From: Bacteroidales bacterium
Lineage (GTDB): Bacteria > Bacteroidota > Bacteroidia > Bacteroidales > VadinHA17
Direction of reading: 5' to 3'
Length of the DNA: 38,842 bases
NCBI GenBank assembly: GCA_025358645.1
Contig: JANYIW010000031.1
Location: 1 to 38,842, forward strand
Shown: one piece after another, positions 10,231 through 21,800 of the stretch
How positions within the stretch are numbered: the first letter of the stretch is position 1
Layout: the number at the start of each line of letters is the position of its first letter
Position numbers and translations under genes: made by a program
The notes under the pieces: model-generated
Told to the model about the DNA's origin: nothing
The model's input: only the letters and a program-made list of their open reading frames with translations
The model's database searches: none

Positions 10231-10247
10231 GTCTGATAATTCAATAT

Positions 10248-11336
10248 ATGGCATTGACAATAAAAGAGATACTTGAGAAGGATATTTTTACAAGGGAAGA
10301 TATTATATTACTTCTGCAATCCAAAGGCGAAGAGAGAACTCGTTTATTTAAAAAATCTGCTGAAATCAAAGAAAAATATATAGGTAATAAGGTATGGTTC
10401 AGAGGGTTAATTGAATTTTCAAATATATGTAGTAAAGATTGTCTCTACTGTGGAATAAGAAAAGGAAATATAAATTTAACCAGATATAATCTCTCCGATG
10501 AAGAAATACTTACGGCTGCTAAATTTGCTTATACTAACCGTTACGGATCTATCGCTCTTCAATCAGGAGAGCTTGAGAGCACATTTGTAACAACCAGGAT
10601 TGAAAACCTTCTACATAAGATAAAAGAACTCTCGCGTGGAGAACTTGGTGTGACCTTATCAGTTGGAGAACAAGAGCCTGATGTGTACAAAAAATGGTAT
10701 GACGCAGGGGCACACCGTTATCTATTACGTGTTGAAGCGACCAGCCAGTCGCTTTACAACAAGATACATCCAAATGATCCAAAACATGATTTCAATCACA
10801 GGCTTAACTGCCTTAAAAGTCTTCAGGATATTGGTTATCAGACTGGCACCGGCGTCATGATCGGATTACCATTTCAAACAATGGATGATCTTGCAGGAGA
10901 CCTGCTCTATATGAAAAATTTTAACATCGACATGTGTGGAATGGGGCCATATATTGAACATGCCGACACTCCTCTTATTGAACATTCAGAAAAACTAATG
11001 TCTCTGAAGGATAGATTTGATCTCACACTTAAGATGATTGCCATAATCAGGATAATGATGAGAGATATTAATATTGTAGCTGCAACTGCTCTTCAGGCAA
11101 TTGATCCTATTGGCAGGGAAAAGGCAATTAAGATTGGCGCTAATATCCTTATGCCAAATATAACTCCGGGTAAATATCGTGACAGCTATAAACTATATGA
11201 TAATAAGCCTTGTACAGACGATTCAGCAGAAGATTGTCAGAGTTGCCTCGAGGCCCGCGTCGGCCTTGCTGATGCAGAAGTAATATATGGTGAGTGGGGC
11301 GATTCAAAACATTACAGTGAAAGAAGAGGTAATTAA
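10248..11336 (+). CDS. hydE: [FeFe]-hydrogenase maturase HydE (radical SAM)
   Basis: 362 residues from ATG 10248; a longer frame from 10179 would overlap the peptidase gene by 52 bases and adds 23 residues not typical of HydE. The radical-SAM cluster motif is CSKDCLYCGIRKGN, followed by the HydE-type barrel (LQSGELES, VGEQEPDVYKKWYDAGAHR). HydE acts with HydG and HydF to build the [2Fe] subcluster, working on the cysteine-ligated iron dicarbonyl cyanide synthon made by HydG. It follows the peptidase closely and is separated from the next gene by a promoter and attenuator, so it may belong to a separate transcript from the genes downstream. Confidence 0.92.
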   Translation: MALTIKEILEKDIFTREDIILLLQSKGEERTRLFKKSAEIKEKYIGNKVWFRGLIEFSNICSKDCLYCGIRKGNINLTRYNLSDEEILTAAKFAYTNRYGSIALQSGELESTFVTTRIENLLHKIKELSRGELGVTLSVGEQEPDVYKKWYDAGAHRYLLRVEATSQSLYNKIHPNDPKHDFNHRLNCLKSLQDIGYQTGTGVMIGLPFQTMDDLAGDLLYMKNFNIDMCGMGPYIEHADTPLIEHSEKLMSLKDRFDLTLKMIAIIRIMMRDINIVAATALQAIDPIGREKAIKIGANILMPNITPGKYRDSYKLYDNKPCTDDSAEDCQSCLEARVGLADAEVIYGEWGDSKHYSERRGN

Positions 11337-11387: not shown

Positions 11388-11418
11388 TTTCCTTTTGTAC
11401 AAAATTACAGTAATTTTG
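11388..11418 (+). promoter_or_regulatory. Promoter upstream of the Tyr leader
   Basis: TAATTTTG at 11411-11418 is an exact match to the Bacteroidota -7 box TAnnTTTG. TTTC at 11388-11391 matches three of four bases of the -33 box with 19-base spacing. Transcription would start near 11425, about 10 bases before the leader ATG at 11436. This spacing is what an attenuated leader transcript needs. Confidence 0.5.
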
Positions 11419-11435
11419 AACTCAGATATTAAGCA

Positions 11436-11495
11436 ATGGGCATTATTAAATTGAAAATTGATATTTATTATTATTATTATTGCAGACAGATTTAA
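11436..11495 (+). CDS. Tyrosine-rich leader peptide (putative attenuator)
   Basis: A 19-residue ORF, MGIIKLKIDIYYYYYCRQI, ends in TAA at 11493-11495. Five consecutive TAT (Tyr) codons occupy 11466-11480. It lies between a promoter-like box and an intrinsic terminator upstream of a tyrosine phenol-lyase-like gene. Runs of one codon near the end of a short leader are the signature of ribosome-mediated attenuation. The run is also a TTA/TAT microsatellite in AT-rich DNA, so chance cannot be excluded from one sequence. Changes in repeat number would stay in frame and alter only the number of Tyr codons. Confidence 0.6.
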   Translation: MGIIKLKIDIYYYYYCRQI

Positions 11496-11574
11496 GTAAG
11501 TCCTGTAATAAATAAGTGTCTACAATACACTTTGCAAAATATAAGGCTTACCGGAGAAATGGTAAGCCTTTTTT
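11496..11574 (+). promoter_or_regulatory. Antiterminator / terminator switch
   Basis: GTAAGTCCT at 11496-11504, immediately after the leader stop codon, can pair with AGGCTTAC at 11544-11551 with a single bulged T. The second strand is the 5' arm of the terminator, so the two structures exclude each other. A small hairpin, AAGTGT 11514-11519 with ACACTT 11527-11532, sits in the enclosed loop. A ribosome that reaches the stop codon would cover the first arm and allow termination. One stalled in the early Tyr codons would leave it free and permit read-through. A weak all-A/U pairing of 11462-11471 with 11505-11514 could serve as the protector helix. Confidence 0.55.
11543..11574 (+). terminator. 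Intrinsic terminator in the leader
   Basis: A perfect 10-base-pair stem, AAGGCTTACC (11543-11552) and GGTAAGCCTT (11561-11570), has an 8-base loop and runs into six T (11569-11574). It ends only 30 bases before the next start codon and about 200 bases after the hydE stop. It could simply end the hydE transcript, but the promoter-like box, leader peptide and alternative pairing in front of it favour an attenuator. Confidence 0.8.
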
Positions 11575-11604
11575 ATTAAACCATATAATCAACTTACAAT
11601 AATT

Positions 11605-13071
11605 ATGGAAAAAACTCAGAAAAAAGGTACTGTAAAGTTCTTCAATGGGAAACAGATCCCGCTTGAAATGCACAAAGTACGGATCGTACAATCTTTAAAA
11701 CTTGTTCCGGTTGAACGTCGTCTGGAAGCAATCGGCGAGGCAGGATACAACTCTTTCCTGATGGGAACAAAAGATATTTTTCTTGATATGCTTACAGACA
11801 GTGGTACAAATGCAATGAGTGATGAACAACTCTCAAAAATGTTCGTTGCAGATGATGCTTATGCAGGTTCACAGAGCTTTGTCAAATTTCAGAAAAGTGT
11901 ATCACATGTTTTCGGAAAAAACCTCTTATTACCTGTTCATCAGGGAAGGGCTGCTGAAAATATTATTTCACAAATTTTCGTCAGACAGGGATCTGTAATC
12001 CCAATGAACTATCATTTTACAACCACTCTTGCTCATATACAGCTTAACGGCGGCAGGGTAGTGGAACTTTTCACACCTGAGGCGATGAAGATTAAAAGCG
12101 CCCATCCCTTCAAAGGTAATATTGACGTTGTCCGTCTTGAGGAGCTGATTAAGAAGACAGGTACTGAAAATATTCCATTTATACGTATGGAAGCCTCAAC
12201 AAACCTTATTGGTGGTCAGCCATTCTCTATGGACAATCTTAAGAATGTCAGAAGAGTAGCTGATAAGTATAAATTAATTATAGTGTTAGACGCAAGTCTT
12301 ATAGGCGAAAACGCATTTTTCATTCAGAAACGTGAACAAGGTTACGAAGAGCGATCTATAGGATTCATCCTTAAAGAGATGTGCGACCTTTGCGACATGG
12401 TCTATTTTTCAGGACGTAAAGTCAGTTCTTCACGCGGTGGAGCCATCTGTACCAACAATATTGACCTATATAATAAGATGAAAGACCTTGTACCGCTTTA
12501 TGAAGGATTTCTTACTTACGGTGGAATATCAATCAGGGAAATTGAAGCAATGACTGTGGGATTATATGAAACTCTTGACGAGGATGTTGTAGGACAGTCA
12601 CCATCTTTTATCAATTACGCGGCAAATGAACTCGACAAGCTTGGTATTCCTGTAATTTTACCAGGAGGAGCGCTCGGATGTCATGTAGACGCTAAACAAT
12701 TTCTCGCGCATATTCCACAAGCTGATTACCCTGCAGGGGCATTGGTAGCTGCCTTTTATATTATCTCCGGTATTCGCGGTATGGAACGTGGTACAATGAG
12801 CAGCATACGTGACGAACAGGGAAATGATATACTTGCAGACCTTGAACTTATGAGGCTTGCATTTCCAAGACGGGTTTTTACTTTGTCGCAGGTTGAATAT
12901 CTTATTGACAGACTAAACTGGCTATTCCACAACAAGGAACTCGTTGGTGGAATAAAGTTTGTCGAAGAACCACCTGTTCTGCGTTTCTTTACAGGAAGAT
13001 TGGCCCCTATTGGAAACTGGCCTGAAAAACTCGTTGCAAAATTCAAGGCCGACTTTGGGGATAGCCTATAG
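11605..13071 (+). CDS. Tyrosine phenol-lyase / tryptophanase family PLP enzyme
   Basis: 488 residues, full length for the beta-eliminating lyase family. Compared from memory with Citrobacter tyrosine phenol-lyase (TPL), the pocket agrees at Tyr86 (Y71), Arg115 (R100), Asn200 (N185), Asp229 (D214), Lys272 (PLP lysine K257) and Arg422. The two residues that select phenol over indole are also TPL-like: Thr139 in HFTTT (T124) and Arg395 in MERG (R381). One important residue differs: Arg217 of TPL, which contacts the PLP phenolate, is Leu232 here. The sequence around the lysine, SGRKVSSSRGG, is also unlike SGKKD. TPL reversibly converts tyrosine to phenol, pyruvate and ammonia; the reaction here is uncertain. 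It lies between hydE and hydG behind a Tyr-codon leader. Confidence 0.75.
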   Translation: MEKTQKKGTVKFFNGKQIPLEMHKVRIVQSLKLVPVERRLEAIGEAGYNSFLMGTKDIFLDMLTDSGTNAMSDEQLSKMFVADDAYAGSQSFVKFQKSVSHVFGKNLLLPVHQGRAAENIISQIFVRQGSVIPMNYHFTTTLAHIQLNGGRVVELFTPEAMKIKSAHPFKGNIDVVRLEELIKKTGTENIPFIRMEASTNLIGGQPFSMDNLKNVRRVADKYKLIIVLDASLIGENAFFIQKREQGYEERSIGFILKEMCDLCDMVYFSGRKVSSSRGGAICTNNIDLYNKMKDLVPLYEGFLTYGGISIREIEAMTVGLYETLDEDVVGQSPSFINYAANELDKLGIPVILPGGALGCHVDAKQFLAHIPQADYPAGALVAAFYIISGIRGMERGTMSSIRDEQGNDILADLELMRLAFPRRVFTLSQVEYLIDRLNWLFHNKELVGGIKFVEEPPVLRFFTGRLAPIGNWPEKLVAKFKADFGDSL

Positions 13072-13229: not shown

Positions 13230-13523
13230 ATGGAAAAGAGAATTGGTACAATTACAATCTTAATCAAAGGCAAAATCTCAGTATCTGCAGTCAATGCCTT
13301 ATTATCTGAATACAGCAGTATAATTCTTGCCCGCCAGGGGCTGCCTCTGCATAATCGGAATATCAATGTAATTTCTCTTGTAATCGAAGGAACAATCGAA
13401 ACAATCAGCGCTCTTACCGGAAAGATTGGACGTTTAAAAGACGTGGAAGTTAAATCTATTCTAACCAAATTCAAGGAGGAGCAAATTAATGAACAAGAGC
13501 GAACGGAACAAGGTATTTATTGA
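13230..13523 (+). CDS. TM1266-family iron-only hydrogenase system regulator
   Basis: 97 residues with the betaalphabetabeta ACT-like pattern of the small protein that accompanies hydEFG in many anaerobes (RIGTITILIKGK, NINVISLVIEGTIETISALT, GRLKDVEVK). The family is called a putative regulator from its genome context and ACT-like fold (related to NikR C-terminal domains); no DNA-binding domain is present. Its 3' end overlaps the hydG start by 35 bases, so the two are very probably co-translated. Confidence 0.85.
   Translation: MEKRIGTITILIKGKISVSAVNALLSEYSSIILARQGLPLHNRNINVISLVIEGTIETISALTGKIGRLKDVEVKSILTKFKEEQINEQERTEQGIY
13473..13480 (+). promoter_or_regulatory. Strong Shine-Dalgarno fixing the hydG start
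   Basis: AAGGAGGA lies 8 bases before ATG 13489 and inside the end of the upstream gene. Such a clear site is unusual in this window and supports the overlapping start for hydG. Confidence 0.6.
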
Positions 13524-20078: not shown

Positions 20079-21800
20079 TCAAAGTAATACATTTCTTTTT
20101 TCAAAATGAGTAAAGAATATCTTCTTATCTGCAATATCAGCATTATCTTTTAGAAGCTTATCATATAAGGTGATTAGAGAGAGCGATTTGCATGGCAGAT
20201 TAATTGCTTCTGTATCATCAGCCTGGTAGACAAGTCTGGATCTGTTCTTAATTTCCTCCTTTGAAGTATTGAATGAGAGCCCTGCTCCATGTACACATCC
20301 ACCCGGGCATGTCATCACTTCAATGAGATCATACTTTTTACCGGCAGCCATAGAAACCTTTAACCTTTCCAGTCCTGTAAGTCCATCGACAACTGCAACT
20401 TTGACCTCCACCTCACCTACCATTACTGAAATTTCCCTGAATACTCCAGCCGATCTCAGCTTTTTAAAAATCTGCTTATCGGGCTCTTTCTTCATTTTCT
20501 GATAATGATATGTGCGGATGACACCTTCTGCCAATCCCCCCGATACCTCAGCCAGAATTGCGGCGGAACTTCTCCCTGACATAGGTTCATCTGCCGGTTC
20601 CTGTTCAATGTTTGAAGTATCGATTCCATATAACCTAATTAGTCTGGCCAATTCTCTCACCGTCAAAACAGAATCTACATCGCTTATCCCTTTCCTCATC
20701 ATACCGTCACGACGGGCTTCAAATTTCATTGCCATACATGGAGTTGCCGATACAGAAAAGATCTCTTCAGGTTTAACTCCCAGCTGATCGGCTACCAGAG
20801 TTTTTATCAGTACCCCTGTAATCTGTTGAGGGGATTTTACTGTCGAGAGATAGGGAATAAGCGAAGGAATAAATTGCTCGGCATATTTGACCCATGCAGG
20901 ACAAGCAGAAATATACAAAGGGTTATCTGACTTATTTTCAATTCTTTGAGAAAGCTGGCCTGCAATTTCGGATATACAAACATCGGTGCCTAAACCTGTT
21001 TTATAAACCTTATCAAAACCAATTTTACGGAGTATGGTATTGAGAACTTTATCAAATTCCCTGGTATATCTCATCCCAAGTTCTTCGGCTATTCCGTAAA
21101 CCACCATTGAAGAATACTGAATGACCTTTACTATCTCAGGTTTATTAAGGTATTCCTGTACTTCTGTAATATTGTGTTTTTCATGAAGTGCACCTGTAGG
21201 ACAAACCAGAACACACTGGCCACAATGAATACAGCTTGAAAAGTTAAAATCCCTGTCCATTGCTGCACCAACATGTGTCTCTCTTCCTTTATTAATAAAA
21301 TCAAGTGAAGTCGCCGTTATAACCTCCTCACAAACTCTGACACATCTCCCGCAAAGTATACATTTTGATAGTTCCCTTATGATAGCCGGGCTTGATTGGT
21401 CAAGACGTGGTTTGATTTTTCGGCCGCGTATTCGTCGTTCTCTTATATTAAGTTCTTCCGCGAGTCGCTGAAGCTCACAATTTAGATTCCGGTCACAATA
21501 AAGACAATCGTCGGGATGGTTTGAAAGAAGCAGCTCAACAATTGTTTTTCGCGCTGTGATAACTCTGGGTGAGTGAGTTTTAATTTTCATCCATTCCTCA
21601 ACAGGTTGGGAGCAGGCTGTTACGAGGCGGTCACGTCCCTCTACTTCAACAACACACATCCTGCAGGCGCCGGTAGGTGTAAATTCCTTCATCCTGCAGA
21701 GCGTCGGTATAATAATTCCGTTGCGATTAAGGGCCGAAAGGATTGTTTCGCCCTTTTCGGCTTTGATCTTTTTATTATTTACCTGTATCGTAAAAAGCAT
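20079..21800 (-). CDS. hydA: HydA-like [FeFe]-hydrogenase catalytic-type subunit, atypical pocket
   Basis: 573 residues, collinear with clostridial CpI. It has [2Fe-2S] (C35/46/49/63), the His-Cys cluster (H95, C99, C102, C108), two [4Fe-4S] clusters (C147/150/153/157 and C190/193/196/200) and the H-cluster domain. The cubane cysteines C300, C355, C498 and C502 are present. However, the residues matching CpI C299, E279, E282, M353 and K358 are Ala299, Ile279, Gln282, Thr353 and Met358, giving ISACPAW and TPCMAMK instead of TSCCPxW and MPCTAKK. Ser319 and Arg286 remain. In family terms it is the H2-active subunit of the HydABC NAD-linked hydrogenase; these changes make normal turnover doubtful. 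It lies 5 bases after hydB. Confidence 0.85.
   Translation of the reverse strand: MLFTIQVNNKKIKAEKGETILSALNRNGIIIPTLCRMKEFTPTGACRMCVVEVEGRDRLVTACSQPVEEWMKIKTHSPRVITARKTIVELLLSNHPDDCLYCDRNLNCELQRLAEELNIRERRIRGRKIKPRLDQSSPAIIRELSKCILCGRCVRVCEEVITATSLDFINKGRETHVGAAMDRDFNFSSCIHCGQCVLVCPTGALHEKHNITEVQEYLNKPEIVKVIQYSSMVVYGIAEELGMRYTREFDKVLNTILRKIGFDKVYKTGLGTDVCISEIAGQLSQRIENKSDNPLYISACPAWVKYAEQFIPSLIPYLSTVKSPQQITGVLIKTLVADQLGVKPEEIFSVSATPCMAMKFEARRDGMMRKGISDVDSVLTVRELARLIRLYGIDTSNIEQEPADEPMSGRSSAAILAEVSGGLAEGVIRTYHYQKMKKEPDKQIFKKLRSAGVFREISVMVGEVEVKVAVVDGLTGLERLKVSMAAGKKYDLIEVMTCPGGCVHGAGLSFNTSKEEIKNRSRLVYQADDTEAINLPCKSLSLITLYDKLLKDNADIADKKIFFTHFEKRNVLL

Follow-up and report, generated by a model that had tools for sequence, protein, structure and literature searches.

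The attenuators of the his, thr, ilv and phe operons share as general features runs of regulatory codons, alternative RNA helices and an intrinsic terminator. Leader peptides act in another way in the tryptophanase (tna) operon of E. coli, which is controlled by nascent-peptide arrest: TnaC senses free tryptophan, prevents Rho termination and induces the degradative enzyme. T-boxes bind tRNA directly, without translation, and the Tyr T-box (tyrS, Firmicutes) senses the charging of tRNA-Tyr. Tyrosine phenol-lyase (TPL) is reversible and can form tyrosine from phenol, pyruvate and ammonia. In Bacteroidota, clues of leader-peptide attenuation before amino-acid biosynthesis operons of Flavobacterium psychrophilum, together with new 5' elements at Flavobacterium pheA and hisG that lack an Rfam match, are given in the accessible part of PMC9723704, and leader-like short ORFs of B. 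thetaiotaomicron in that of PMC7366714; these parts of the two papers name neither a tyrosine-specific leader nor a TPL-like target. The accessible text of PMC1262725 lists tyrosine genes as T-box-controlled and states that no conserved RNA element was found for the tyrosine operons of Actinobacteria. A paper on L-tyrosine synthesis with TPL is cited in the accessible part of PMC12058496. In the open-access literature, covered mostly as titles and abstract openings, we found no tyrosine-only leader peptide and no tyrosine-codon attenuator on a TPL-like gene.

The leader described here is, as judged from its sequence, a real and conserved tyrosine attenuator, with a known mechanism and an unexpected target. 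Like the his, thr, ilv and phe attenuators, it combines a codon run for the regulated amino acid and an arm 2 just downstream of it with alternative antiterminator and terminator helices and an intrinsic terminator before the first gene. In contrast to them, it uses Tyr codons only, and its target is a member of the TPL/tryptophanase family rather than a classical pathway enzyme. With the tna operon it has in common that a leader peptide acts on a member of this enzyme family; however, the intrinsic terminator and the codon-run geometry found here imply starvation control. The proposed sensing of tRNA-Tyr charging with control of transcription resembles the Tyr T-box, and the Rfam search gave no T-box match in the window.

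The window, that is, the whole stretch of 38,842 nucleotides that was analysed, is contig C142 of genome G000 (4.06 Mb, 414 contigs), to which, among named records, Bacteroidales MAGs are most closely related. The parts listed in the initial annotation (a promoter-like box, a 19-residue ORF with five Tyr codons, an antiterminator arm and a terminator with T6) were confirmed in the sequence together with their coordinates (Table 1). The box agrees with TAnnTTTG, which we take to be the Bacteroidota-type -7 consensus; by eye, no obvious -33 element lies at the expected distance from it in the window, and a sigma-70 scan gave 8 promoter-like sites compared to 7.1 in shuffles, as expected for Bacteroidota. 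The terminator reads AAGGCTTACC-GGAGAA-ATGGTAAGCCTTTTTT (11543-11574), with a stem at 11543-11570, a T run to 11574 and a stem-loop energy of -16.5 kcal/mol. When the 217-nt region was subjected to 3000 dinucleotide shuffles, Tyr runs of at least four and at least three in a short ATG ORF appeared in 1 and 21 of them, respectively, and a run of at least five in none. Among 667 short ORFs on both strands of the window (ATG start, 8-45 aa, nested starts counted), the leader ORF alone has a Tyr run of at least three. Neither the window nor any of 11 tested loci has a match at the gathering score of an Rfam family; two sub-threshold matches are at chance level.

Table 1. Features of the leader region and its surroundings in the window, and the pheA leader of the same genome.
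Feature	Position	Strand	Remarks
hydE	10239-11336		Upstream of the leader region
-7 promoter box, Bacteroidota type (TAnnTTTG), here TAATTTTG	11411-11418	+	Seen by eye at the same place in 19/19 leader loci
Predicted leader peptide ORF, MGIIKLKIDIYYYYYCRQI and stop codon	11436-11495	+	ATG start, 19 codons; A Tyr-rich ORF occupies this place in 19 loci
Five regulatory Tyr codons (TAT x5)	11466-11480	+	Run codons mostly Tyr over the 19 leaders
Arm 2, GTAAGTCC	11496-11503	+	Directly after the ORF stop; antiterminator pairing with arm 3
Arm 3, AAGGCTTACC	11543-11552	+	5' half of the terminator; also partner of arm 2
Arm 4, GGTAAGCC, and T6	11561-11574	+	3' half of the intrinsic terminator
Gene of the TPL-like PLP enzyme	11605-13071	+	Regulated gene; PRK13238 subfamily, under the TIGR02618 (TPL) cut-off
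ORF of a TM1266-family iron-only hydrogenase regulator	13230-13523		Between the TPL-like gene and hydG; overlaps the hydG start
Phe/Tyr-rich pheA leader	L159 (G000:C188), between a hisI-like ORF (ends 3295) and pheA (starts ~3040)	-	

For translation, stalling, read-through and the direction of the response we infer the following course. Transcription would start a few nucleotides past the -7 box, and a ribosome would translate the leader peptide behind RNA polymerase. With ample Tyr-tRNA, the ribosome would proceed to the stop codon (in relatives with longer ORFs, through arm 2) and cover arm 2, so that arm 3 would pair with arm 4 and transcription would end at the T run. When Tyr-tRNA is scarce, the ribosome would stall on the Tyr codons and leave arm 2 free to pair with arm 3 before arm 4 is made; no terminator would form, and the gene would be transcribed.

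Among 110 fetched loci of TPL/tryptophanase relatives, a Tyr-rich ORF about 150-175 nt before the gene was found in 18 rows that represent 13 distinct loci; six duplicate loci (L031-L036, which repeat L003, L004, L002, L005, L011 and L010) were dropped before counting, and four unrelated Tyr-containing short ORFs (L047, L048, L051 and L061) were set aside. A covariance model (R1) was built from the 13 distinct loci and applied to overlapping sets of 62 genus, 117 family, 295 order and 296 phylum genomes. It added six genus genomes with a leader (G060, G067, G068, G075, G076 and G085), each directly before a TPL-like gene. The TPL-like gene is present at 61% identity or more in 23 of the 62 genus genomes, being truncated in one (G023), and 16 of these 23 have the leader before it. 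G062 was left out of this number and has only a 46-aa gene remnant with a stop codon; the broken pieces in G062 (G062:C4:6351-7467 and 21130-21267) comprise this remnant and fragments of the tryptophanase/TPL family with in-frame stops. In the 39 genus genomes without the gene, R1 found no such leader, and its two matches there (G010 and G064) are ilvD leaders. Outside the genus, the leader occurs in three Bacteroidota records (L038-L040, 74% identity) and in none of the other fetched TPL-like homologues, including those from Alistipes, Marinilabiliaceae and Verrucomicrobiota. Altogether this gives 19 leader loci with 18 distinct sequences, L038 and L039 being identical over the leader. On this comparison of sequences, the leader is a real and conserved feature.

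The leader is missing in 7 of the 23 genus genomes: G009, which is degenerate, G014 and G069, which keep the promoter box, as well as G024, G070, G030 and G023 with its truncated gene; the homologues of G009, G014, G069, G024 and G070 are close ones. Since R1 searches over more than 40 genomes used stricter filters that lose weak matches, absence from these searches is not proof. G024 (L012) and G070 (L188) lack the Tyr ORF but retain the promoter box and terminator remnants; in L012, an inverted repeat is seen by eye where the Tyr ORF would be. G069 has a second partial copy at a contig end (G069:C318:3-188). In a protein tree of 55 chosen rows, G070 not among them, the leader is associated with 18 of 22 members of one fully supported clade; the numbers of changes counted on this tree vary with the choice of rows. 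The leader gene of G060 (L150/L139, G060:C56) falls outside this clade and groups with a Verrucomicrobial gene; thus two TPL-like lineages stand behind the same leader, as after gene displacement.

Over the 19 leaders, 94 of 102 run codons specify Tyr (76 TAT and 18 TAC), and the remaining eight encode His, Phe, Cys and Arg. The main run has only two or three Tyr in L141 and L140, and the leader ORF of L141 has a GTG start. The C-terminal parts of the leader peptides vary among relatives. A comparison of the intergenic region across relatives, proposed in the initial annotation as a check on the Tyr run and the stop position, found the run to be kept and the stop to vary in position, from upstream of arm 2 to within or downstream of it.

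Over 12 distinct alignment rows, 98.3% of cells keep the terminator pairing, compared to at most 70.0% in slid versions, and 94.0% keep the antiterminator pairing (arm 2:arm 3), compared to at most 59.5%. Double changes affect two pairs in the terminator and none in the antiterminator, neither number being above shuffles, with variation scarce. Arm 2 begins 10-17 nt past the last Tyr codon in all 19 leaders. A reach of the ribosome of about 12 nt downstream of the codon is given in the accessible part of PMC4833913. Transient folds were computed for RNA that ends after arm 3, with the leading edge of the ribosome assumed to lie 13 nt beyond the first nucleotide of the last Tyr codon; under this set-up, arm 2 is left uncovered in 19/19 leaders and forms its duplex with arm 3. 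When placed at the stop codon, the ribosome extends to or beyond the start of arm 2 in all 19 as well, by 2 nt only in L002, which has an early stop codon and a mismatch in arm 3. A stricter test (at least five pairs, arm 2 at 10-17 nt) was passed by 18/19 leaders and by 15.9% of linker shuffles, the exception being L007 with just four arm 2:3 pairs; since the leaders are related, the 19 results are not independent of one another. For single leaders, the energy of the arm 2:3 duplex is often unexceptional when compared to shuffles (in L002, 204/300 shuffles were as good). The mutual exclusion of antiterminator and terminator noted in the initial annotation is borne out by the folding and by the pairs kept in relatives.

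Beyond the TPL leaders, R1 matched 11 loci, all of which precede amino-acid biosynthesis genes with leader codons that match the product. These are seven ilvD loci with Ile/Leu-rich leaders (G010, G064, G379, G380, G382, G383 and G396; L144, L145 and L181-L185), three hisG loci with His-rich leaders (G189, G226 and G319; L146-L148) and one aspartokinase gene with a Thr-rich leader (G487; L186); the gene identity was assigned by HMM on partial proteins at seven loci and by eye at four. G000 itself has a cluster of pheA, an aminotransferase gene and tyrA after his genes (pheA and tyrA by HMM, the other genes by eye), and its pheA is preceded by the leader MNIVYKYFISFYYFYFYFKNR and a terminator-like hairpin. 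Of 16 pheA loci, 15 have a leader rich in Phe and Tyr before the gene, and the remaining one is interrupted by a contig end. In this genus, Phe/Tyr biosynthesis thus appears to be governed by such a switch, of which the TPL-like gene has a Tyr-only version. Rfam gave no match at L144-L148, L181 and L186, nor at the pheA leader locus.

Because the leader codons match the product at every other model match, and because of the Phe/Tyr leader at pheA, we favor ribosome-mediated attenuation over two other explanations. The enzyme family includes tryptophanase, and induction of a lyase by its substrate is the usual logic, so that a TnaC-like control could be considered, in which the nascent Tyr-rich peptide would arrest the ribosome at high free tyrosine and turn on a catabolic lyase. 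However, the leader peptides show no conservation at their C-termini; in 19/19 leaders, a ribosome arrested at the stop codon would hide arm 2 at least in part and thereby favor termination; and the feature is a codon run like that of the His, Ile/Leu and Thr leaders from the same model; we regard such an induction as very unlikely. Still harder to credit is a simple hydE terminator with a chance ORF on an (ATT)n microsatellite and no attenuation at all. It would agree with the perfect (TAT)5 repeat of the window and with a terminator downstream of hydE, but diverged relatives preserve Tyr despite switches between TAT and TAC, and a mere ATT microsatellite is excluded by synonymous runs such as that of L143 (TAC TAT TAC TAT TAC). 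Moreover, each of the 19 loci has the -7 box just upstream of the ORF, both leader and terminator are retained in the seven genus loci (of 16) where hydE does not directly precede them (G007, G012, G021, G060, G068, G075 and G076), and the shuffles of the window region never reproduced the run. Sequence comparison therefore gives good support to the initial proposal of attenuation at Tyr codons, with read-through when charged tRNA-Tyr is scarce. We hold with high confidence, which covers the attenuator and not the direction of the enzyme, that a ribosome-mediated transcription attenuator sensing charged tRNA-Tyr controls the TPL-like gene. The gene would very probably be on when Tyr-tRNA charging is low, that is, switched on only at tyrosine shortage.

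The fold of the regulated enzyme is clear from its sequence. The window protein passes PRK13238 (576 bits, cut-off 285) and scores 436.6 bits against TIGR02618 (TPL), below the cut-off of 720.7; elsewhere, TIGR02618 scores are 484.5 for L139, 462.8 for L041 and, above the cut-off, 900.2 for L018. Both tryptophanase equivalogs failed (for TIGR02617, 351.4 bits compared to a cut-off of 825.8), and the closest solved relatives by sequence are TPLs (E 2.3e-113). Residue positions were transferred via alignment to a solved TPL, in what we take to be TPL numbering, and counted after proteins under 400 aa and identical ones had been left out (149 to 108 rows). Thr124, Met379, Arg381, Phe448, Arg404, Asp214, Tyr71 and Lys257 are kept in 95/95 homologues of more than 55% identity; of these, Thr124, Met379, Arg381 and Phe448 are presumably phenol-ring-binding, and Lys257 is presumably the PLP lysine. 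At positions 124, 381 and 448, the window family thus has Thr, Arg and Phe and not the Asp, Ile and His of tryptophanase, which are found in 12 of 13 paralogues of less than 45% identity. The pocket is therefore predicted to bind a phenol ring. In the same homologues, Arg217 is replaced by Leu (95/95) and Lys256 by Arg (94/95), with roles and numbering assumed to be as in TPL, and the chemistry around PLP may differ from that of TPL; a literature search on these two residues in TPL returned nothing relevant among the matches listed. The TPL-like subfamily occurs in several phyla, and eight neighbor proteins of TPL-like genes outside the genus have no common theme. A gene of about 850-920 aa adjoins the TPL-like gene on the same strand, downstream in L116, L117, L119, L120 and L149 and upstream in L118 and L151; the two that were tested (L116 and L119) match zinc carboxypeptidase, Peptidase_M14.

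In the window, the TPL-like gene lies between hydE and the TM1266-like ORF with hydG. A TATTTTTG box without a good -33 element is seen by eye between the TPL-like gene and the TM1266-like ORF, and co-transcription of the TPL-like gene with this ORF and hydG may occur in the window; co-regulation of hydG in one operon with the TPL-like gene is only weakly indicated. hydE is directly upstream in 9 of the 16 genus leader loci. In nine leader loci, the next ORF of at least 70 aa is convergent, which leaves the TPL-like gene as the sole target there. At about the same place, L112, L116, L117 and L118 have a HydG of only 41-43% identity in the opposite orientation, compared to 94-96% in L111 and L113, which suggests a replacement of hydG in these relatives. 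Our literature search found no paper on TPL together with HydG.

Since every other occurrence of this architecture found in the genomes scanned is at a biosynthetic gene, the analogy suggests that the TPL-like enzyme helps to supply tyrosine. An enzyme running in the synthetic direction, as considered in the initial annotation, fits the regulation best and stays at the level of a proposal. tyrA (PF02153) is present in 59 of the 62 genus genomes, including G000, and among the leader-bearing genomes only G076 (83% complete) is without PF02153; PF00800 (pheA) was found in 16 of 19 genomes searched, the others being G034, G068 and G076. Replacement of TyrA by the TPL-like gene as the sole tyrosine route was rejected on the PF02153 counts. 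Because tyrA is already present, the enzyme, if it does supply tyrosine, would constitute a second, salvage-type route. Our tentative reading, held at somewhat less than even confidence, is that this clade of the TPL/tryptophanase family is an anabolic tyrosine synthase under a Tyr-specific attenuator, which would salvage phenols at tyrosine starvation from phenol or a phenolic donor together with pyruvate and ammonia, or serine; the Tyr attenuator of the TPL-like gene would then parallel the Phe/Tyr attenuator of pheA-tyrA.

Two other roles of the enzyme were weighed against a tyrosine supply. With the attenuator real, as is compatible with this alternative, tyrosine starvation could serve as an amino-acid stress signal for an enzyme that acts on another phenolic or beta-substituted substrate. 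The replacement of TPL Arg217 and Lys256 by Leu and Arg points to altered chemistry, tyrA is present, and homologues elsewhere have no leader; on the other hand, regulation relies specifically on Tyr codons and TPL's ring-binding residues are kept throughout, and we consider this alternative rather unlikely, albeit a serious one. Far less probable is an attenuator that spares tyrosine for HydG, or provides it, during H-cluster assembly. The position of the window gene speaks for it, but HydG scores above its cut-off in 12/16 leader genomes compared to 34/46 other genus genomes, several leader genomes have no hydE/hydG neighbors, and for homologues outside the genus no hydE or hydG match was found at E 1e-8 in the fetched flanks of up to about 5-8 kb. 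The link to [FeFe]-hydrogenase maturation drawn in the initial annotation found no support in these counts, the leader tracking the TPL-like gene; its suggestion that tyrosine is guarded for HydG was rejected on the same counts and loses its basis because the leader follows the TPL-like gene and not hydE/hydG.

Apart from the TPL leaders, the model uncovered His, Ile/Leu and Thr leaders, and a Phe/Tyr leader stands in the same genome as the window; the 11 tested loci are below Rfam gathering scores. The target of the Tyr leader belongs to an enzyme class that is regarded as degradative. For this TPL-like subfamily, the regulatory logic alone would predict a part in supplying tyrosine, in this genus at least.
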